A DNA stretch of 64,000 nt from Glutamicibacter sp. JC586. GTDB taxonomy: Bacteria > Actinomycetota > Actinomycetes > Actinomycetales > Micrococcaceae. Shown one piece after another: positions 2,444 to 15,024 of this stretch. The translations under genes and the position numbers were made by a program. Within the stretch, counting starts at the first letter, position 1, and every line of letters starts with the position of its first letter. The DNA lies in NCBI RefSeq assembly GCF_009805585.1, contig NZ_VHIN01000017.1, forward strand, positions 124,001 through 188,000, in the 5' to 3' direction. The notes below the pieces were generated by a model. The model made no database searches, was not told the origin of the DNA, and saw only the letters and a program-made list of their open reading frames with translations.

Positions 2444-3244
2444 GTGTACGAAGGTGCTGTACAGGAACTGATCGACGAGCTCGGTCGCTTACCTGGCATC
2501 GGCCCAAAGTCGGCTCAGCGCATTGCTTTCCACATTCTTGATGCCGATTCTGAGGATATGACCCGGTTGGCCGCTTCGATCCAGCTGGTCAAAGAAAAAG
2601 TTAAGTTCTGCGAGATCTGCTTCAACATCTCGGAGCAGGAGATCTGTGCGATCTGCCGCGATGAACGTCGTGACGGGACCAAGATCTGCATCGTTGAAGA
2701 ATCCAAGGATGTCATGGCCATCGAGCGCACCCGCGCCTTTGGCGGCAAATACCATGTGCTTGGCGGTTCGATTAATCCTTTGGCAGGTATCGGCCCGGAG
2801 CAGTTGCATATCCGTGAGCTGGTCACCCGTCTGGCCGATGAGTCCATCACCGAACTAATTTTGGCGACCGATCCGAACCTTGAGGGTGAGGCCACTGCCG
2901 TGTACTTGGTCCGAGCCCTAGCCCCGTTGGGAATTCGGATCACCCGTTTGGCTTCAGGTCTTCCTGTAGGTGGCGACTTGGAGTACGCCGACGAGGTCAC
3001 CTTGGCTCGCGCTTTTGAAGGCCGCCGTACCGCTGGCTCCAATTCAGCCGCTGCGACCCGTCGCAACGAGTCTTCGGCCCCAGAACTTGCCAAGGATCAA
3101 GATGCGCCAGCTGCTACCCCGACAAGCAAGGATGCGGGGCCGCGGCTGTTCCGCGCGATTGATCCACAGCAGGCTCCCACTATTTCCACATCTGGCCCAT
3201 CGCACCCGGTTGTTCCCGAAATGGACAATCACCGCAACCGGTAA
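2444..3244 (+). CDS. recR: Recombination protein RecR with an extra C-terminal tail
   Basis: RecR acts with RecF and RecO in loading RecA at gapped DNA. Visible in order: helix-hairpin-helix [11 protein letters not shown] (residues 16-26), a four-cysteine zinc finger (C56, C59, C68, C71), and a Toprim domain starting near [10 protein letters not shown] (residue 81). The GTG start at 2444 is preceded by an AGGAAAAAG ribosome-binding sequence. The family normally ends near residue 199, at the [12 protein letters not shown] segment; here the frame runs on for about 67 residues of Ala/Ser/Pro/Thr-rich sequence with no recognisable domain. The core identification is secure. The tail could be a lineage-specific disordered extension or the result of a lost stop codon. 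Confidence 0.93.
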
Positions 3245-3265
3245 CCAGCCGAAGTTTTCACCACG

Positions 3266-3309
3266 AACCTCGCATTTCCCGACATCCTCGGGAGGTGCGA
3301 GGTTTTTGT
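3266..3309 (+). terminator. Rho-independent terminator after recR
   Basis: The arms AACCTCGCA and TGCGAGGTT close a hairpin followed directly by a T run; it lies 22 bases after the recR stop. Confidence 0.85.
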
Positions 3310-3351
3310 TATGAACCAGCCAATGCATAGTTGTGCGATGGAACACGCATA

Positions 3352-3398
3352 GTTGATAAACATCAACCATCAGCGTATGGTTGATATAAATCAACCAT
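3352..3398 (+). promoter_or_regulatory. Promoter with two palindromic operators, upstream of the efflux gene
   Basis: A perfect palindrome, ATGGTTGAT-ATAA-ATCAACCAT (3377-3398), and a shorter related one, GTTGAT-AAAC-ATCAAC (3352-3367), lie with centres 28 bases apart. A plausible promoter runs through them: -35 TTGATA (3353-3358), 17-base spacer, -10 TATGGT (3376-3381). Each operator would therefore cover one promoter element. The TTGAT/ATCAA half-sites suit a MarR-family repressor, and the MarR gene is the second gene of this operon, so autoregulation is inferred. Confidence 0.75.
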
Positions 3399-3435
3399 TC
3401 GGCGATCTTTGTCGACCCTTTTCTTTGGAGCTTTA

Positions 3436-5133
3436 ATGACCGACACCGCACCGGTCGTCAAGGTGAAGATGACACACCGAGAAATCCTCACAGCCCTCAC
3501 CGGCATTCTCATGGGTATGTTCGTCTCCATCCTGGCCAACACCGTCGTATCCAGTTCGCTACCCGTGATCGTTTCCGATCTGCACGGTAGTCAGACCTCG
3601 TACACCTGGGTAGTCACCGCCACCTTGTTGGCCACTACCATTTCCACCCCCATTTGGGGCAAGCTTGCCGACCTCGGCAACCGCAAACTGCTGCTGCAGA
3701 TCTCCTTGGCGATCTTCGTACTCGCCTCGGCAGCAGCTGGTTTCTCGCAGACCACCAGCTTCCTCATCGCCATGCGCGTCATCCAGGGTCTAGCCGGTGG
3801 TGGAGTTGGTGCCCTGGCTCAAATTGTCATGGCCGACTTCCTCTCTCCACGCGAACGCGGTAAGTACATGGGCCTATTTGGTGCCGTCATGGCCATTGGT
3901 ACCGTGGGCGGTCCATTGATCGGTGGTTTTGTCACCGACACCATCAACTGGCGCTGGAACTTCTTCATTGCACTGCCTTTTGCTATCGCAGCGGTGGCAC
4001 TAATCCAACGCACCTTGCACCTGCCAGCTATCGCTAAGCGCAAGGTCAAGATCGACTACTGGGGTATCGTCTTGCTCTCCGGTGGCGTGTCCTTGCTGTT
4101 GATCTGGATGTCCTTGGGCGGATCTGAATTCGAATGGGCTTCGACCACCAGCTTGCTGATGGTTATTGGCGCAGTGGTACTGATCGCCACATTCATCGTG
4201 GTTGAGATCAAATCTTCCGAGCCGCTGCTGAACATGTCGCTGTTCAAGAACCGCACCTTCACCTTCGCAGTGATCGCATCGCTGGCTGTTGGTGTGTCCA
4301 TGTTCGGCACCTCAGTCTTCCTGAGTCAGTACATGATCATGGCTCGTGGCGCATCGGCCACCATGGCCGGTCTGATGACCTTCCCACTCATGGGTGGTCT
4401 GCTGGTCATCTCCACCATCGGTGGTGCGATCATCTCGCGCACCGGTAAGTGGAAGGCCCTAGTAGTTACCGGCTCGGTGCTGATCGTCATTGGCCTGTTC
4501 CTGCTGGGAACAATCCACTACGACACCAACTACGCTGTGGTCGCTTCCTTCATGTTCATCCTGGGTGCTGGCATGGGCTTGGTCATGCAGAACATGGTGC
4601 TTGTTGTACAGAACTCCGTGGACATCAAGGAACTAGGAGTTGCCTCATCTTCGGTCAACTTCTTCCGCACCTTGGGCGGTACCGCAGGTACCGCGGGTCT
4701 GGGAGCCATCTTGGCCGCCACTATCCCCGATATGATTGCTGACCGTCAGGCTGATTTGATGCAAGCCATTGGATCGCTGGGCGAAAAGGGACAGGCCATT
4801 GCGCAGATGCTCTCTTCGGGGAATCTGCCAACCGTCTCCACCCTGCCAGAACCAGTGCGAGTAATCTTTGAATCCATCTACGGTGATGCGGTACCTTCAC
4901 TGTTCGCTTTCGCCGCTCCTTTGTCGCTGCTAGTGGTAATCGCCGTGTGCCTGATCCCTAACCAGTCATTGACCACGCAGAACGCCTCTGAACGTCTGCA
5001 GGAAGTTGAAGCCGAAACTACCTTGAACAGCGCTGGCGTCACCGCTGATGCAAAGAGTATCGAAACTGAGCCTATGAAGGTCGAGGCAAATAGCACCGCG
5101 TCCCCCACAGCTCAAAAGTCGGCAGATAACTAG
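3436..5133 (+). CDS. MFS drug-efflux transporter, DHA2 (EmrB/QacA) family
   Basis: A predicted 14-helix proton-driven exporter of the inner membrane, 565 residues. The N-terminal half carries DHA2-type features: the IVVSDLHGS-type loop after helix 1 (here VSDLHGSQTSYTWV), the loop GKLADLGNRK after helix 2, and a motif-C-like stretch GAVMAIGTVGGPLIGG in helix 5. The C-terminal ~60 residues are hydrophilic and Glu/Thr/Ala-rich. The ATG at 3436 is chosen over an upstream TTG because TTGGAG sits just before it. The MarR-family gene follows 10 bases downstream, and paired operators precede the gene, so this is probably a ligand-inducible efflux module. The substrate cannot be told from sequence. 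Confidence 0.9.
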   Translation: MTDTAPVVKVKMTHREILTALTGILMGMFVSILANTVVSSSLPVIVSDLHGSQTSYTWVVTATLLATTISTPIWGKLADLGNRKLLLQISLAIFVLASAAAGFSQTTSFLIAMRVIQGLAGGGVGALAQIVMADFLSPRERGKYMGLFGAVMAIGTVGGPLIGGFVTDTINWRWNFFIALPFAIAAVALIQRTLHLPAIAKRKVKIDYWGIVLLSGGVSLLLIWMSLGGSEFEWASTTSLLMVIGAVVLIATFIVVEIKSSEPLLNMSLFKNRTFTFAVIASLAVGVSMFGTSVFLSQYMIMARGASATMAGLMTFPLMGGLLVISTIGGAIISRTGKWKALVVTGSVLIVIGLFLLGTIHYDTNYAVVASFMFILGAGMGLVMQNMVLVVQNSVDIKELGVASSSVNFFRTLGGTAGTAGLGAILAATIPDMIADRQADLMQAIGSLGEKGQAIAQMLSSGNLPTVSTLPEPVRVIFESIYGDAVPSLFAFAAPLSLLVVIAVCLIPNQSLTTQNASERLQEVEAETTLNSAGVTADAKSIETEPMKVEANSTASPTAQKSADN

Positions 5134-7796: not shown

Positions 7797-7809
7797 GCGC
7801 ACAGCCCCG

Positions 7810-7833
7810 CTAAAGCTCATGCCTGCGGCACTG
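7810..7833 (+). repeat. Left 24-bp direct repeat bordering the accessory island
   Basis: Matches 10102-10125 at 23 of 24 positions (one C/A difference at the seventh base). The sequence is one arm of the terminator hairpin found intact at 10104-10156. This copy has lost its partner arm, as if DNA had been inserted into or next to the lysC terminator. Confidence 0.8.
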
Positions 7834-7865
7834 ACGTTTCTAACCGTCGTTGCAGTGGTAGTAGG

Positions 7866-8300
7866 CTAGCATTCGCATGTTAGATCTTGCATACGCCCGA
7901 CTGGAATCATCCAGTCGGGCGATTTGCGTACGCTCCCACAGAACATTACAGATTCCTGCTCCACCTTCTCCGAGCCATGCGTGCTCAAATCAGGACTCTC
8001 CAGAAAATAACAATGCAACAAACCCACTGGTGTCTTCAATAGGTACACAATGCCAAGGACTAAGCGCCTTGCTGGACCACAACATCCATTTTCGTCGCAA
8101 CGTTAATCGACATATGCAACACCAGCTGAACATCTGGTTCCCAGGACAGAGAACCATGCAATGTATCAGGCAACATCGCCATCCTCGAGATTAGCTCTTC
8201 ACTTTCGGTCTCTGCGGTGCGTCCCCGCGCGGCTACACCAGCATCATGCACTTGATGGCACGCTGCACGAGGGTGCTAGTTGCCCGCTGGCCCGGTCCGG
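7866..8300 (-). mobile_element. Decayed IS30-family transposase (C-terminal part)
   Basis: Read right to left in several frames, this stretch keeps the order of IS30 transposase landmarks: STLVQRAIKCMMLV then PRGDA (consensus TLVERxTRxxxLxxLPxGH), then LPDTLHGSLSWEPD (consensus LPxxLRxSLTWDQG), INVATKMDV, SPWHCVPIEDTSGF (consensus SPWQRGTNENTNGL), SPDLSTHGSEKVE (consensus TDLSxHSxExL), and SPDWMIPVGRMQDL (consensus TLxWxTPAExLxxLL). At least one stop codon and several frameshifts interrupt it, and the N-terminal half and ends are missing, so it cannot be active. The alignment is to the family consensus as I remember it. Confidence 0.75.
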
Positions 8301-8428
8301 TGCCTGTTGTTGACAGTTCCTAAAAGACAATCTTAGAGACTGTGGGCCAACCACCCTCGGCATGGTTCCTTGCCCTGTCTAGCCAATGATGGGAGTGGCA
8401 TGATCATAAATTCAGGGAGCGATAAATA

Positions 8429-8464
8429 GATCAGTGCCCACCGCCCATGTGGTGGGTACTGATC
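8429..8464 (-). terminator. Probable terminator of the bacteriocin-like operon
   Basis: The arms GATCAGTACCCACC and GGTGGGCACTGATC (minus strand, one G-T pair) close a 14-bp stem 71 bases past the last gene of the operon. The following sequence is only moderately T-rich, so efficiency is uncertain. Confidence 0.55.
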
Positions 8465-8534
8465 TACAAACATGCGTCCGCTCAGTTTTTGTTTCGTTAC
8501 TACGTTGAGCCGAATAGAGACACAGGGAGAATTG

Positions 8535-8726
8535 TTAGGTTAAAGCGTTAACCAGAAGTAGGGATACGCCTAGAATTCCCACTACGATTGCGACCCCTAT
8601 GCGCACACGGAAATTTCGCATGTCATGATCTTCTTGTGGTGATGCGCGAAGACTTTGACTAGCTGTGAAAGCCAATATACTAAATGTTGCCATACAGATT
8701 ATTGCTAGAGCTGAAACAAGAGACAT
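8535..8726 (-). CDS. Small two-helix membrane protein of the bacteriocin-like operon
   Basis: A 63-residue protein with two hydrophobic segments (about residues 3-22 and 43-62) joined by a charged loop, SPQEDHDMRNFRVR. Its ATG directly follows the TAG of the preceding gene (TAGATG), so translation is almost certainly coupled. I do not recognise a family. Position as third gene after a secreted hydrophobic peptide suggests an immunity or export role, which is inference only. Existence as a gene is supported by the tight spacing and coherent two-helix pattern. Confidence 0.65.
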   Translation of the reverse strand: MSLVSALAIICMATFSILAFTASQSLRASPQEDHDMRNFRVRIGVAIVVGILGVSLLLVNALT

Positions 8727-8960
8727 CTACGCTACCTCCAACACTTTTTCGCCGAAGCCTATAGTTTTGGACAGTGCAACTTCGTTCATTGAGGTCAGGT
8801 GGGCTGCATAGAATCCGAATGCGCCAGGCACAAGCATGTTTGCTAGACTCAGCAACTGGCATTCGAGTGTTTCGGGGATACCAAAAATTCCCCAAAGAAT
8901 AAGCATTCCTGCAGAGCCTACCGTTGCCCCGGATAGTGTGAATCTGACGTAGGTCGTCAT
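8727..8960 (-). CDS. Small membrane protein of the bacteriocin-like operon
   Basis: A 77-residue protein with hydrophobic stretches at about residues 8-27 (LSGATVGSAGMLILWGIFGI) and 38-54 (LANMLVPGAFGFYAAHL), and a polar C-terminal tail. Its ATG is preceded by AGGAGT, which overlaps the stop region of the secreted precursor gene; the intergenic distance is 8 bases. No family is recognised. As a membrane protein produced together with a secreted, very hydrophobic peptide it is a candidate immunity protein (inference). Confidence 0.7.
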   Translation of the reverse strand: MTTYVRFTLSGATVGSAGMLILWGIFGIPETLECQLLSLANMLVPGAFGFYAAHLTSMNEVALSKTIGFGEKVLEVA

Positions 8961-8968
8961 CTCAACTC

Positions 8969-9466
8969 CTAACAGAACTTAGAATCGAAGTAAGTTTGAA
9001 GAGCAGAATACGATCCCGCTAGAGCAGCGAGTGCGCCGAGCTGCGAAGCACTAAAAGAGGCCCCTGCAATTAATATGGTTCCCCCACTGGCCATCGTCGC
9101 GGCAGCCGCTAGTGCTGCTAGGCCAACAGCACCGATTCCCGAAATGATTGCAGCCCAAGTATTCGCGCACATTGAAGCAGCCGGCTTTGCAATCGTCGAC
9201 TTTTCTGCAACTTGGAAGTTTTTTCCGTTCTTAGTGATGTTGAATTCATGCCCATCTGGTGACATATAGACGTATGTCTGCCCATCACCCAAATTAGCGA
9301 GATCTTGAGTTAAATCGTCAACATCTTTCAGTTCGGAGGCTGATGAAAAAGTCGAAACCGACACAGGGGGAACTACGGGCTGAGCAGCAGTTGCTGAGAA
9401 GCTAACGGTCGACACGAAAGCAACAGCCACAACTACCGCTAATGAACGTTTCAAAAAGTTGTTCAT
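8969..9466 (-). CDS. Secreted precursor with a hydrophobic, two-cysteine C-terminal peptide (bacteriocin-like)
   Basis: A 165-residue precursor in three parts. Residues 1-28 form a Sec signal peptide (KRSLAVVVAVAFVSTV, cleavage near ATA-A). Residues ~29-98 are a polar propeptide-like region. Residues 100-165 are a 66-residue segment running from Cys100 to Cys165, rich in Gly, Ala and Ser and with no charged residue until Asp161 and Lys163. A secreted precursor ending in a hydrophobic peptide bounded by cysteines recalls closticin 574 and halocin-type bacteriocins, as I remember them; this is resemblance of layout, not proven homology. ATG at 9466 is chosen over the preceding TTG because AAGGA lies 9 bases upstream. 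It is the first gene of a three-gene operon. Alternatives are a pore-forming toxin or a secreted surface peptide. Confidence 0.75.
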   Translation of the reverse strand: MNNFLKRSLAVVVAVAFVSTVSFSATAAQPVVPPVSVSTFSSASELKDVDDLTQDLANLGDGQTYVYMSPDGHEFNITKNGKNFQVAEKSTIAKPAASMCANTWAAIISGIGAVGLAALAAAATMASGGTILIAGASFSASQLGALAALAGSYSALQTYFDSKFC

Positions 9467-9540
9467 CAATAAGCGTCCTTACAACATAATATTTAGGTTA
9501 ACCATCGTTAACGAACCTACAGCCCATAGCGAATTATGTA
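9467..9540 (-). promoter_or_regulatory. Promoter region of the bacteriocin-like operon
   Basis: On the minus strand, GTTAAC-GATG-GTTAAC (two identical palindromic hexamers) lies upstream of an AT-rich segment containing TATTAT, a possible -10, followed by AAGGACG and the start codon. The repeated GTTAAC may be an operator or simply AT-rich promoter DNA. Confidence 0.4.
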
Positions 9541-9679
9541 CATCATACTTTTGTAGGATCCTAGACGGACTGGCTCGTGCACCTTGTGTGTCGCTTAGTG
9601 CACCGCCTGCGCTGAGATGCCTTGAGCTTCGCCAATCGTGCGAATTCAGCGACTTTGTCCACGTAGATCGTGGATCATG

Positions 9680-9870
9680 TCATGACAGTCCTGACGATCT
9701 TGCAAAGAAAATTGCCAACTCTTTCATGATGCCATTGGCTTCTTCAAGGTCATTGTCCTTAGCTTGCGTGCTTTATTTTAGGCGAGTTCTTCACCACGCG
9801 GTCCGGAACGTTCACCCGCATCAGCTTGGGTTTAGCGGTCCTGCCGGCGCAGGGTTTCTTTGCAGACGTT
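9680..9870 (-). mobile_element. Decayed IS3-family transposase OrfA fragment
   Basis: On the minus strand, VCKETLRRQDR, stop, TQADAGERSGPRGEELA, stop, then after a frameshift DNDLEEANGIMKELAIFFAR can be read. This matches the C-terminal half of IS3-type OrfA (ETLRxWVRQ-xDAGxRxG-EEx-LxRxNxIL-ASAFFA) in the right order. Two stops and one frameshift make it a relic. No intact OrfB or terminal repeats are visible next to it. The match is from memory of the family consensus. Confidence 0.75.
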
Positions 9871-10101
9871 CAGTTTTATTGGCAGGACCGCGCACGCGGG
9901 TGGATCGACTTTTTCGGGCTAGGCGCTCTAAGACATAGTTCCCTGCTCGGGCGTCGACTACTGGGATACAGCTTGGGAATGCTATCCATTCTTTCAACAA
10001 GAAACGGCACAAAACCCGGCATGATTCGCACACTCCGAATCCATCTGAGCAAATTTCCCGCGCCAGTTTCATACCGTATTTCAAAGTTTCGAAGACCCCC
10101 A
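9871..10101. other. Non-coding right part of the island
   Basis: No convincing gene was found. An 11-bp perfect inverted repeat (GCGGTCCTGCC at 9835-9845 and its complement at 9881-9891) straddles the left edge. The sequence may be further IS debris, too decayed to assign. The neighbouring stretch 9541-9679 is likewise without a supported gene. Confidence 0.5.
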
Positions 10102-10125
10102 CTAAAGATCATGCCTGCGGCACTG
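10102..10125 (+). repeat. Right 24-bp direct repeat bordering the accessory island
   Basis: Partner of 7810-7833 with one mismatch. Here the repeat is still joined to its inverted arm and forms the terminator at 10104-10156. Confidence 0.8.
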
Positions 10126-10156
10126 GATTTTCCAGCGCCGCAGGCATGAGCTTTTT
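10104..10156. terminator. Terminator hairpin at the phoD end
   Basis: The arms TCATGCCTGCGGCACTGG and CCAGCGCCGCAGGCATGA form a long stem with flanking A and T runs (AAAGA...GCTTTTT), so it can work in both directions. It ends phoD transcription on the minus strand and was probably shared with lysC before the island arrived. Confidence 0.85.
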
Positions 10157-11896: not shown

Positions 11897-12652
11897 ATGA
11901 GCGATGAACGAGTCAACTCCGGCCCGCCTCCCGCCGACTTCCCGATCCCGGAAGCGGTGCGCTTAGCGGCCGGCACCGAAGCCATCGAGGGCGTGTGGCT
12001 CAACGCCCTGGGCGGGGCGACGTTCCGCATCGGACAAGGAGCCGATACCCGCTACGCCAAATGGTCGCCGGGCCCGATAATCCACCCGGAGATCGATCTT
12101 CGATCCGAGGCCCAACGCCTGCGGTGGGCCGGAAGCTACATACTCGTCCCCGAGGTGTTGTCCTTCCAGGAGTACTCCGAAGGCCAGTTGCTGCTCACCG
12201 CGGCATTGCCGGGATCCAGCGCTGTGAGCGATCGGAGCAAGAACGACCCGGAGCGTTCAGCTTATGCCGTCGGCCAGGGACTGAGGCAGCTGCATGATTC
12301 GCTGCCGGCAGGGTCGTGCCCGTTCAGCTGGGACCTCTCCTCCCGCATCGCTTCCCTTCCCAACGGCCAGCAATCCGCATTGCTCGCCGATGCCCCGCCG
12401 ATAGATGCTGTGGTGTGCCACGGCGATGCTTGCCTGCCCAATACGCAACTGGATGCGAACGGCGACTTCTTCGCCCACGTTGACCTGGGCAAGTTGGGGG
12501 TCGCGGACCGGTGGGCTGATCTTGCCATCGCCGCCTGGAGCACCGAATGGAACTATGGTCCCGGCTATGAGCAATGCGTATATGCCGGTTACGGAATGGA
12601 TCCTGACGAGGAAAAGATCGCCTTCTACCGGCGCATCTGGGATGCCACCTGA
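11897..12652 (+). CDS. Aminoglycoside phosphotransferase (APH(3')-like kinase)
   Basis: A 251-residue small-molecule kinase of the protein-kinase-like APH fold. Visible: a probable ATP-binding lysine in YAKW (K55), the catalytic loop HGDACLPN (H175, D177, N182), and the metal-binding HVDLG (D196), followed by the ADLAIAAWSTEWNYG segment typical of APH(3') enzymes. The start at ATG 11897 gives the usual length, but no strong ribosome-binding site is evident. Chromosomal copies in soil actinobacteria may be intrinsic and need not confer resistance. No mobile element adjoins it. The substrate is unproven. Confidence 0.8.
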   Translation: MSDERVNSGPPPADFPIPEAVRLAAGTEAIEGVWLNALGGATFRIGQGADTRYAKWSPGPIIHPEIDLRSEAQRLRWAGSYILVPEVLSFQEYSEGQLLLTAALPGSSAVSDRSKNDPERSAYAVGQGLRQLHDSLPAGSCPFSWDLSSRIASLPNGQQSALLADAPPIDAVVCHGDACLPNTQLDANGDFFAHVDLGKLGVADRWADLAIAAWSTEWNYGPGYEQCVYAGYGMDPDEEKIAFYRRIWDAT

Positions 12653-12661
12653 CAGGGGTTT

Positions 12662-13333
12662 CTAGCGTGCCACGTAGCGGTGCTCCGGGCGTCCCCGGGT
12701 GCCATAGCCCAACTGGAGTTCCAAGGAATCGTTGGCCACCAGCGCCGCCAGATAGCGCTGTGCCGTTGCCCGGGCGACACCCACGGCTTCTGCCACCTCG
12801 GCCACGCTCATCGGCTCCGAGGCTTCCTTCACGCAGCTGAGCACTGCCTGCTCGGTAGGAGCGGCACCAACCGCCGGGGCGGCTTCCTCGCCACCTTGCA
12901 GAGCCCGGAAGAGCCGGTCGACTCCCTGCTGGTTGAACTCCGTCACCCCGGTCAGCTGCCGCCGATACCGGGCCCAGCCCTTGAGCTTGGCACTGAGCGT
13001 TTTGGCGTCAAAAGGCTTGATGATAAATGCCAGCGCCCCATGGCGGATGGCATTGGCGATATTCTTCGGCTCGGTGGCCGCCGAGATCATAATGGCGTCC
13101 ACATCCAATTCACGCAGCAGCTCAATGCCGCTGACATGCGGCAAATACAGGTCCAGGAGCAGCAGGTCGGGCTTGAGCGTGCTCACGAGCTTGGGCACCA
13201 TGCGAGGATCCTGGACTGGTTCCAAAGCCTGGAACCCCGGGATGGAATTGACCATCTCTGCGTGGAGGGCGCCAACACGAAAGTCATCGTCGACGATCAT
13301 GACCTGGTAGTTTCCGGTAGCGGTCTCGCTCAC
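12662..13333 (-). CDS. Response regulator, CitB/DcuR family
   Basis: The output half of the two-component system encoded with the overlapping kinase gene. The receiver domain has the acidic pocket VDDD (15-17), phospho-acceptor D61 in LLLDLYLP, and K106 in IIKPF. The C-terminal part (about 150-223) is a winged helix-turn-helix with VAEAVGVARATAQRYLAAL. GTG at 13333 overlaps the kinase TGA by four bases, so the two are translationally coupled. The likely target is the citM-type gene divergent from the kinase. Length 223 fits the CitB/DcuR class. Confidence 0.9.
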   Translation of the reverse strand: MSETATGNYQVMIVDDDFRVGALHAEMVNSIPGFQALEPVQDPRMVPKLVSTLKPDLLLLDLYLPHVSGIELLRELDVDAIMISAATEPKNIANAIRHGALAFIIKPFDAKTLSAKLKGWARYRRQLTGVTEFNQQGVDRLFRALQGGEEAAPAVGAAPTEQAVLSCVKEASEPMSVAEVAEAVGVARATAQRYLAALVANDSLELQLGYGTRGRPEHRYVAR

Positions 13334-15024
13334 GGCTTTGCTCCTTCGATCTCGTTGTTCTCGGGTGCGGTTGGTTCAACCAGCACCGCTGGCAGCCGGG
13401 CGGCAAAAACTGCGCCATCGCCGCCGCTGCCCGGATCAGCAATCCAGACATCTCCGCTGCGTGCCTGCGCCAGCCGCTTGATCAGCGGCAATCCCACTCC
13501 CCGGCCGTGTTCATTGCCCAGATGGGAACCAGTACTGACATCACGCGCGAAAATATCTTCGCTGGTGGTGATGCCCGGGCCGGAATCCGCCACCGCAAGG
13601 TGCAAAGTGGTCGCTTCGGAGAGCAAGTCTATTTCCACCCAGGGTTTGCCTTCGCCCCTCAGGGCGGCGGTGAAGGCGTTATCCAGAAGATTGCCCAGCA
13701 CCGCGGTGGCGTCTTGGGCGTCGTGTGCGGAGGCAATCTGACCGAACAGCATCGACTGGCTCGACACTCGAAGCTCAATGCCCTGTTCATGAGCACGCAC
13801 GGCCTTAGCTGAGATGAACGCCGAAAGATAAGCATCCTGGATAGCTTCCAGCCCAGGCACCTGCGCAATCTTCGGCCCGGTCTCCATGACCTCACGCAAA
13901 TAGGCTTCAGCCTGCTCGATCTTGCCCAGATCAATCAACCCAAGTACCGCGTGCATGCGGTTAGCAAATTCGTGGCGTTGGGCGCGCAGGGCATCAGCCA
14001 TGTCCTGCACCGCATCCAATTTGGTGCCCAAAGCTTCAATGGTCGTGACGTCGTTGAGTAGAACGACCTGCCCTAAATACATCCCGTCACGGTTCACTTC
14101 ATTCACTCGAGCAATCAAAGAATTGCCATTGGCTTCCAGACGCACAGGAGCGGGATCTCGTTCCTTGATGGCCTTAACCAGCCGCGAGTCCAGCCCCGCC
14201 GACTCGAAGTGACGGCCCACCACATCTTGTATTTCGGTGCGATGCGGCAGACCTAAGAGCTGGCGGGCGGCCTTATTGCGCACGGTAATCCGTCGATCCG
14301 GACCAATACCCATCACACCTTCGGTGACACCGTAGAGCACTGCCTGCTGATCTCGCACCAACTGCGCAATTTCCGTGGGCTCTAATCCCAAGGTTTGGCG
14401 CTTGAGCCTACGCACGGTGATCTGCCCGGCAACCACTGCCAATCCCCCGGCCAACAAGGCCAGCAGCACGATCCAGCTAAAAGATTCTAAGAGGGCGCCG
14501 GTCAGCGACTGGGTGGGCACACCCACGGAAACTTCCCCGATCACTTGGCCGGTGGCATTTCGAACCGGGACCTTGGCACGTACCGATTCACCCAGGGTTC
14601 CGTGTTCCCTGGATACTGCTTCGATACCGTCCAATCCCACCGGGTCGGTGGACACCATCTTACCGATTTCCTCCGGATTCGGATGGCTCAAGCGCAGTCC
14701 ACGATCCTCGGTAATGACCACAAAAGATGCTTGCTTCTGTGCCACTACGGCGTTGGCCAGCTTTTGCAGCCTCCCCTTGGCCAGCTCGTTTTCATCGAGG
14801 TTCTCGATAGCCGCATACCGAGTGACATCCTCAACAACCTCCGGGAGCACCGCAATAGACCTAGCAATAGTCAACGAGGTGTCTTCGGCCCGCGAATACA
14901 CGCGGTCATAACTGGCATAAAGCGTTCCCGCGGTGACCAGGACGATGAGAACGCCAACGACGAGGAACTGCAAACGCATGATGCGCGATGCGAAGTGCCT
15001 CGAGCGCGGGCCAGAACGGAACAT
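13330..15024 (-). CDS. Sensor histidine kinase, CitA/DcuS family
   Basis: A 564-residue membrane kinase expected to sense citrate or a C4-dicarboxylate outside the cell. Order: first membrane helix (about 17-38), extracellular PAS-like domain (40-180), second helix (SFSWIVLLALLAGGLAVVAG), cytoplasmic PAS domain (about 225-320), a dimerisation helix with the phospho-accepting histidine in QRHEFANRMHAVLGL, and the ATPase domain with GNLLDNAF, DSGPGI and GRGVGLPLIKRL. The RHEFANxxH box is diagnostic for this kinase family. It is divergent from the citrate transporter with a 186-base shared promoter region, and followed by the overlapping regulator gene. Confidence 0.92.
   Translation of the reverse strand: MFRSGPRSRHFASRIMRLQFLVVGVLIVLVTAGTLYASYDRVYSRAEDTSLTIARSIAVLPEVVEDVTRYAAIENLDENELAKGRLQKLANAVVAQKQASFVVITEDRGLRLSHPNPEEIGKMVSTDPVGLDGIEAVSREHGTLGESVRAKVPVRNATGQVIGEVSVGVPTQSLTGALLESFSWIVLLALLAGGLAVVAGQITVRRLKRQTLGLEPTEIAQLVRDQQAVLYGVTEGVMGIGPDRRITVRNKAARQLLGLPHRTEIQDVVGRHFESAGLDSRLVKAIKERDPAPVRLEANGNSLIARVNEVNRDGMYLGQVVLLNDVTTIEALGTKLDAVQDMADALRAQRHEFANRMHAVLGLIDLGKIEQAEAYLREVMETGPKIAQVPGLEAIQDAYLSAFISAKAVRAHEQGIELRVSSQSMLFGQIASAHDAQDATAVLGNLLDNAFTAALRGEGKPWVEIDLLSEATTLHLAVADSGPGITTSEDIFARDVSTGSHLGNEHGRGVGLPLIKRLAQARSGDVWIADPGSGGDGAVFAARLPAVLVEPTAPENNEIEGAKP

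Follow-up and report, generated by a model that had tools for sequence, protein, structure and literature searches.

The window analysed here, a 64,000-nucleotide stretch of Glutamicibacter sp. JC586 (contig NZ_VHIN01000017.1), contains a three-gene operon that probably represents a new bacteriocin family, one that is real, mobile and modular and whose function we infer from sequence. Our reading, to which we give a probability of roughly 0.62, is that the operon makes, and protects against, a secreted antibacterial peptide: a pre-pro-bacteriocin that would attack membranes, with immunity encoded downstream. A first-pass annotation had proposed a bacteriocin-type operon, and this interpretation was supported at the sequence level. 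A toxin is favoured because the C-terminal module of the precursor is carried by a plasmid as cargo and also forms the tip of an RHS protein, and because the small downstream gene differs between lineages. The conserved cysteines and the gene order point the same way, and the patchy distribution and the insertion at a variable site count for this reading as well.

The precursor gene, gene 2 and gene 3 are tightly packed on the minus strand, with gaps of 8 bases (precursor to gene 2) and 0 bases (gene 2 to gene 3); the annotation had given coordinates, order and gaps exactly (Table 1). An alternative in-frame TTG start for the precursor lies at 9469. All three genes are preceded by a plausible Shine-Dalgarno stretch (judged by eye), and the terminator-like hairpin 3' of the operon has no strong T run. 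The operon is more than an accident of open reading frames (ORFs), because all three frames are conserved in G220 (Arthrobacter sp. NIO-1057; labels such as G051, G115 and G220 denote genomes of the searched samples) and the third codon position has changed most. Amino-acid identity between the window and G220 was 41% for the precursor, 39% for gene 2 and 24% for gene 3. The differences at codon positions 1/2/3 were 70/51/120 over 160 codons, 27/28/49 over 67 codons and 39/28/50 over 63 codons, respectively. The same three-gene order was looked for in other Micrococcaceae, as the annotation had suggested, and was found in two more genomes of the genus sample, G220 and G254, which keep it at another chromosomal site. 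These two operons are nearly identical (2 codon differences in the precursor). They encode a 167-amino-acid precursor, a 75-amino-acid gene 2 product (81 from an upstream TTG) and a 67-amino-acid gene 3 product.

The precursor starts with a predicted signal peptide, whose hydrophobic segments fall within residues 4–27 by hydropathy. It is followed by a pro-region with a net charge of −4, which is predicted to form a small alpha/beta domain. The module at the C-terminus runs from Cys100 to Cys165. It had been described as a nearly uncharged, Gly/Ala-rich segment of 66 residues, and its composition agrees: 19 Ala, 8 Gly, a single K and a single D as the sole charged residues (K/R/D/E), and a grand average of hydropathicity (GRAVY) of 1.05. 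The two end cysteines, whose conservation was checked, are invariant in all five aligned modules (5/5) and are both present in a split copy in G051; a cassette of G115 whose frame is broken lacks the last one. The four secreted forms and the RHS tip have Ala-Ser-x ahead of the first cysteine, and the split G051 copy has Ala-Thr-x. Judged from sequence, this is a likely cleavage place, and the computed mass of the peptide predicted to be released is 6.29–6.50 kDa.

The AlphaFold2 model of the module (3-sequence alignment) showed the helices and the hairpin listed in Table 1 with modest confidence. The mean predicted local distance difference test (pLDDT) was 75.3 for the module alone and 64.6 for the whole precursor. 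Hydropathy and the helical prediction fit a membrane-active peptide. No structural match of weight emerged when Foldseek and VIA-align were run with the model, a result that does not establish a new fold. A PDB sequence search returned the repeat protein BURRH in two rows (E about 1e-10 for the whole chain). This was taken as composition and not kinship, because no single stretch passed and the aligned positions were 33–62 alone. All other rows of the PDB search were at 0.6 or worse. The annotation had recognised none of the three operon proteins as a named family, and scans against Pfam, NCBIfam, PADLOC and PHROGs likewise gave weak rows alone (E 0.01 or worse) and no convincing family.

Clear relatives were confined to the family of the window (the Micrococcaceae sample) in the samples searched. 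With the precursor as tblastn query, 13 of 395 family genomes had a row at E≤0.01, and seven were accepted, including the genome of the window. The other six (G181, G139, G184, G353, G356 and G387) were dropped on score; the frames of five were inspected and were long unrelated proteins or lay outside any precursor-like frame, and G353 was judged on score only. A profile of the C-terminal module gave eight clear places in seven of 390 family genomes, the window included (17 genomes with a row at E≤0.01; rows kept at E≤7.3e-22). Ten rows in ten genomes were dropped at the score gap; these were partial matches with E≥2.1e-4. Five of the eight places went into the profile or nearly duplicate a sequence that did, so that the independent test is a profile made from four secreted precursors alone (see below). 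Besides the window, the module profile matched one partial row (8e-4) among 396 genomes of the order and two partial rows (1.6e-4 and 3e-4) among 396 genomes of the phylum; all three partial rows were counted as noise on score. No relative was found in the viral contigs and phages searched. A first scan of genome contigs found none, and a second one, with alignment, gave Rothia nasimurium irhom_31 (G160) and G220. In the plasmid searches one record matched, and the window precursor, the RHS tip and gene 2 as queries gave none.

Within the genus sample, 4 of 18 genomes carry the precursor by the full-length profile, G051 as a split gene. Here, ~38 kb separate the N-terminal part from the C-terminal part; the latter retains both cysteines, is followed by gene 2 and adjoins transposase-like ORFs. 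Apart from this split gene, the full-length profile found no clear relative with the pro-domain only in the 18 genomes. The idea that the pro-domain is shared with other cargo was dropped, as no clear pro-domain-only relative was found in 35 Rothia genomes either (two true and two weak rows). Among the matches listed in the open-licence literature (titles and abstract starts), no description of the operon or the module was recognised.

The link to RHS proteins is the most interesting part of the finding. In G115, the module forms the C-terminal end (878–944) of a 944-amino-acid ORF with RHS repeats (Pfam E 2.2e-43), directly after Rhs_assc_core at 802–877 (TIGR03696 E 4e-20). The profile from the four secreted precursors alone found this tip at E 3e-7 among 2,864 frames. 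The same profile found a second copy in G115 at 1.3e-7, and the next best frame was at 0.85. A gene for a 54-amino-acid basic protein with one hydrophobic segment and a net charge of +9 starts 13 bases after the RHS gene.

The second copy is a cassette fragment on another contig (G115:C37 2948-3185), which includes the DPSGL junction and has 94.6% DNA identity to the RHS tip copy. Its frame is lost near the end and hence the last Cys is lost, and no immunity-like gene stands behind it. By analogy, it resembles the standalone toxin cassettes that occur in polymorphic toxin loci (PMC3482391).

The module is also found in two Rothia precursors of 170 and 174 amino acids. They are followed by single-helix proteins of 35 and 40 amino acids, respectively, which have in common GYFQQ[KR]RNIKCG (54.8% identity over 31 residues, E 1e-3). 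One of the two copies is the cargo of plasmid pSD9660c (3,449 bp) of Rothia sp. SD9660Na. The gene table of this plasmid, possibly incomplete, has two entries, this precursor and a second protein, each named 'hypothetical protein'; the adjoining 35-amino-acid ORF is unlisted. A homologue annotated with a different function, the finding that would have spoken against the first-pass annotation, was looked for, and the annotated relative was a 'hypothetical protein' alone. The second listed protein had weak winged-helix matches and may be a replication protein.

Two further mini-plasmids occur in the same strain. The first, pSD9660a (4,389 bp; 27% of pSD9660c aligns to it at 73.1%), carries at 2562-3502 (NZ_CP125943.1) a gene for a 211-amino-acid protein that begins like a signal peptide; a downstream gene of 102 amino acids overlaps it, and the two look like another toxin-immunity pair. 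The second, pSD9660b (3,459 bp; 2% of pSD9660c aligns, at 84.1%), encodes at 1996-2658 (NZ_CP125944.1) a 220-amino-acid protein with a signal-peptide-like start. Its sole two cysteines, 147 and 218, bound 72 residues, and the last one is two residues from the end, a design that resembles the window precursor. This protein did not match the module profile. Its Cys-to-Cys part has 15 charged residues and a GRAVY of 0.57 and is thus less hydrophobic than the window module. A further gene of pSD9660b encodes a 55-amino-acid protein, and Pfam and NCBIfam gave no noteworthy match for any of these four proteins (211, 102, 220 and 55 amino acids). That a single strain has three mini-plasmids, all of them encoding a secreted-looking protein, fits a bacteriocin role. 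The design seen in pSD9660b may point to further, sequence-unrelated toxins with end cysteines.

Genes 2 and 3 are the candidates for immunity. Both had been described as tiny membrane proteins. This held for gene 3, which has two clear hydrophobic segments by hydropathy. The label is weaker for gene 2 of the window, because it has no 19-residue stretch with a mean hydropathy of at least 1.6; its relative in G220 does have one. Gene 2 keeps Cys34-Gln35 and YAAH in 3/3 aligned sequences (window, G220 and G051). A search for orphan copies of gene 2 in 295 genomes found four genomes with gene 2, each time beside the toxin gene or its remnant; eight further rows (E 1.9e-4 or worse) were treated as noise on score. 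An argument from orphan immunity genes is therefore unavailable for gene 2. The absence of orphans, the tight placing of both genes behind the toxin gene, the small and hydrophobic gene 3 product and the lack of a strong membrane segment in window gene 2 would also agree with a multi-peptide bacteriocin. Here, the products of genes 2 and 3 would be further active peptides acting with the gene 1 product, and immunity would be encoded elsewhere or be intrinsic. We consider this unlikely, however: by eye, neither gene 2 nor gene 3 has a signal peptide with a cleavage site, and G051 retains gene 2 beside a broken toxin gene. Moreover, the ORFs downstream of the Rothia and RHS copies appear unrelated to genes 2 and 3 by eye, yet these copies have another small membrane protein at that position, which is what exchangeable immunity would predict.

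The operon lies in an inserted segment of 2.26 kb between two genes that we take to be lysC and phoD (by Pfam, an amino acid kinase carrying ACT domains and a PhoD protein). Both genes align at the DNA level across the 18 genus genomes, the window's included, and the DNA between them mostly does not. The site is empty, with adjacent flanks, in 10 of the 18 genomes. The flanks overlap by 27–33 bases in G254, G142 and G220 and are separated by 66–91 bases in G169, G191, G112, G075, G095, G230 and G181. Three genomes (G210, G246 and G157) hold something else at the site, and the comparison was uninformative for four (G127, G023, G051 and G238); the window's own genome completes the 18. The insertion is flanked by an imperfect repeat of 43 bp. 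G254 has a complete terminator-like palindrome, and the left copy of the repeat equals its left half. As the lysC-phoD site is empty in G220 and G254 and the operon is found elsewhere in these genomes, the operon moves. The annotation had also placed it in an island with insertion sequence (IS) debris, and three IS remnants were found in the segment. IS110 is the name given by Pfam; IS30 and IS3 are presumed names for the other two, as Pfam gives rve for both.

Table 1. Positions of the operon, its parts and the surrounding insertion in the window
Feature	Position	Strand	Remarks
Precursor gene, 165 amino acids	8972..9466 (stop 8969-8971)	-	sequence and homologues
Predicted signal peptide, residues 1-28	9383..9466	-	basic start, hydrophobic core, ATAA end, by eye
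Pro-region, residues 29-98	9173..9382	-	residues 48-98 alignable among relatives, GESFTY.S..G pattern
Putative toxin module Cys100-Cys165, 66 residues	8972..9169	-	predicted long helix, short strand hairpin, two short helices
Gene 2, 77 amino acids, candidate immunity protein	8730..8960 (8727-8960 with stop)	-	sequence and relatives
Gene 3, 63 amino acids, candidate second immunity or accessory protein	8538..8726 (8535-8726 with stop)	-	two hydrophobic segments
Terminator-like hairpin 3' of operon	8427..8466	-	-27.6 kcal/mol, z -4.98 against 200 shuffles
Inserted segment with operon, between lysC and phoD	7834..10097	.	ends uncertain by ~30 bases (flanking repeat)
Left copy of half-terminator repeat flanking the insertion	7798..7840	+	
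Right repeat copy	10090..10132	+	part of intact terminator-like palindrome 10104-10154
IS remnant with rve transposase (IS30-like)	7885..8246	.	
IS110-type element end, remnant	8305..8390	.	
IS remnant with HTH_21/rve transposase (IS3-like)	9699..10030	.	

The insertion in G210 has in common with the window the left end (7834-8175, mostly the IS30-like remnant) and the right end (10031-10097). Its cargo is different (G210:C1:421500-427500, reverse complement 2456-3762): a 317-amino-acid protein with a signal-peptide-like start and a 137-amino-acid lipoprotein-like protein, neither with a Pfam family of note. This is possibly a second toxin-immunity cassette. G246 holds a relative of the 137-amino-acid gene without the 317-amino-acid gene (G246:C1:391500-395200, reverse complement 1893-2306), which might stand as an orphan immunity gene would. 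In G157, a stretch between lysC and phoD (G157:C1:2321500-2324200, 1168-1387) matches window 12281-12500 at 67%, so that the gene order around phoD varies too. The lysC-phoD site looks like an exchange place for secreted-protein cassettes. A response regulator and an sCache-domain sensor kinase form a pair near phoD in the window (12662-15024).

The precursor could also be the producer's own secreted surface, signalling or envelope protein, with the hydrophobic end as a membrane anchor and no role as a weapon. A signal-peptide-like start and a hydrophobic end are compatible with such a protein, and toxin activity is something that we infer. This explanation is slightly less likely again than a multi-peptide bacteriocin, as the patchy presence (4/18 in the genus), the carriage on a mini-plasmid, the reuse as an RHS tip and the differing partner genes are unexpected of a housekeeping role. 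The least likely alternative is a self-directed peptide (cannibalism, or plasmid or island addiction) that kills mainly sister cells without the element and has genes 2 and 3 as antidote: it would resemble the Bacillus cannibalism toxin SDP as described in excerpts of PMC6818787 and PMC13343845, and the location of the genes on a plasmid and within an insertion agrees with it, but the window genome has no SdpA, the target is not readable from sequence and the idea departs from the bacteriocin reading solely in who is hit.

Under the bacteriocin reading preferred here, the gene 1 product would be a Sec pre-pro-protein that loses its signal peptide upon export. The folded acidic pro-region would hold the peptide inactive until an extracellular protease cuts near Ala-Ser, just ahead of Cys100. 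The freed peptide would have 66–68 residues and ~6.3–6.5 kDa and would be almost uncharged, Ala/Gly-rich and helical. Its first and last cysteines would probably pair and form a stapled loop. It may then insert into the membrane of competing relatives and dissipate the membrane potential. Cognate immunity would come from gene 2, probably together with gene 3.

Several points weigh against this reading. Eight places are known in total, including one where the gene is split and one where the cassette is broken, and gene 3 is known from the window, G220 and G254 alone. Gene 2 of the window is weakly hydrophobic, and no orphan copy of it was found in the 295 genomes. No known bacteriocin family was matched in Pfam and NCBIfam. 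Confidence in the AlphaFold2 model, built from three aligned sequences, is modest (a mean pLDDT of ~75 when the module is modelled by itself), and no fold match of weight was found for it. Family scans detected neither a transporter nor a maturation gene in the operon, which is bordered by genes for an aspartate-kinase-type protein and for PhoD. The RHS ORF of G115 begins inside the repeats with no signal peptide seen upstream, so this ORF is possibly incomplete and any delivery of the protein putative.

The module is swappable: it is found in a free secreted pro-peptide, on the chromosome or a plasmid, or at the C-terminus of an RHS protein, where it forms the tip. Tentatively, and at slightly worse than even odds, we propose that Micrococcaceae have a new class of membrane-active peptide toxin that is end-stapled, with one cysteine at each end, and is paired with another small membrane protein for immunity in every setting. 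Such a toxin would be interchangeable between a protease-released diffusible bacteriocin (mini-plasmids, islands) and an RHS tip. If this is true, a single module bridges diffusible bacteriocins and polymorphic toxins, and freely secreted pro-bacteriocins are directly linked to RHS-tip toxins. Micrococcaceae, including animal-associated Rothia, would have a new bacteriocin family that is recognisable via a short profile. The compact toxin-immunity pairs (partners of 35–80 residues) could then be used to study how a small membrane protein blocks a membrane-active peptide.

Closticin 574 and halocin C8 are bacteriocins that derive from the C-terminal end of larger secreted proteins. The likeness to them drawn by the first-pass annotation stood for the layout alone and not for the family: the operon had no Pfam or NCBIfam match to them, the presence of their models there being unchecked. 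Circular and saposin-like bacteriocins are similar in size to the window peptide. They also share with the operon, as it is read here, a hydrophobic helical peptide and a small hydrophobic immunity protein. For a saposin-like helical bundle, the modest-confidence model of the module gave no fold match of weight. In the excerpted text of PMC6131525, they are described as closed by a head-to-tail peptide bond or leaderless and without disulfides, with a small hydrophobic immunity protein, the circular ones accompanied by a DUF95 protein and an ABC transporter. The window precursor differs in its two end cysteines and signal-peptide-like start, and the operon has neither a DUF95 protein nor an ABC transporter beside the precursor.

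RHS polymorphic toxins are matched in G115 by the position of the module after Rhs_assc_core, by the small gene behind it and by the broken cassette on another contig. In the window operon, as in these toxins, a small gene comes immediately after the end of the putative toxin gene (the broken G115 cassette lacks one), whereas the window protein has no RHS core. W-TIP is a hydrophobic non-enzymatic toxin tip with RxxR and W-TIP motifs (PMC3482391); the window module differs in having no Arg. Contact-dependent inhibition (CDI) systems have helical toxin tips, each paired with a dedicated immunity protein, that dissipate the membrane potential, according to an excerpt of PMC11630599.

In B. subtilis, SdpC has 203 amino acids and SDP (C141–S182) collapses the proton motive force (excerpt of PMC6818787). 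SdpC homologues vary in the C-terminal hydrophobic part (excerpts of PMC6818787 and PMC13343845). SDP, like PAMP (below), is a precedent for the peptide release proposed here. The operon resembles SdpC and its paralogue YitM in layout alone, namely a secretion signal followed by a hydrophobic C-terminal peptide that, in the operon presumably, is released after export. It differs in that the module has 66 residues with one Cys at each end and the operon order is not sdpABC-sdpRI. SdpA (PF17418) had no match in the window's own genome and matched 2 of 14 control genomes, including B. subtilis (above the cut-off in one); the operon was therefore not filed as an SDP system. The operon proteins had no SdpC match in Pfam or NCBIfam at E≤10, the presence of an SdpC model there being unchecked. 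SdpB and SdpI matches were absent among the operon's genes (Pfam, NCBIfam), with no genome-wide search made.

PAMP of Propionibacterium jensenii is a 198-amino-acid pre-pro-protein with a 27-amino-acid signal, from which an active C-terminal fragment is freed extracellularly (excerpt of PMC5756557). Compared by description alone, it is actinobacterial like the window peptide, and its fragment has 6,383 Da against the 6.29–6.50 kDa predicted here.
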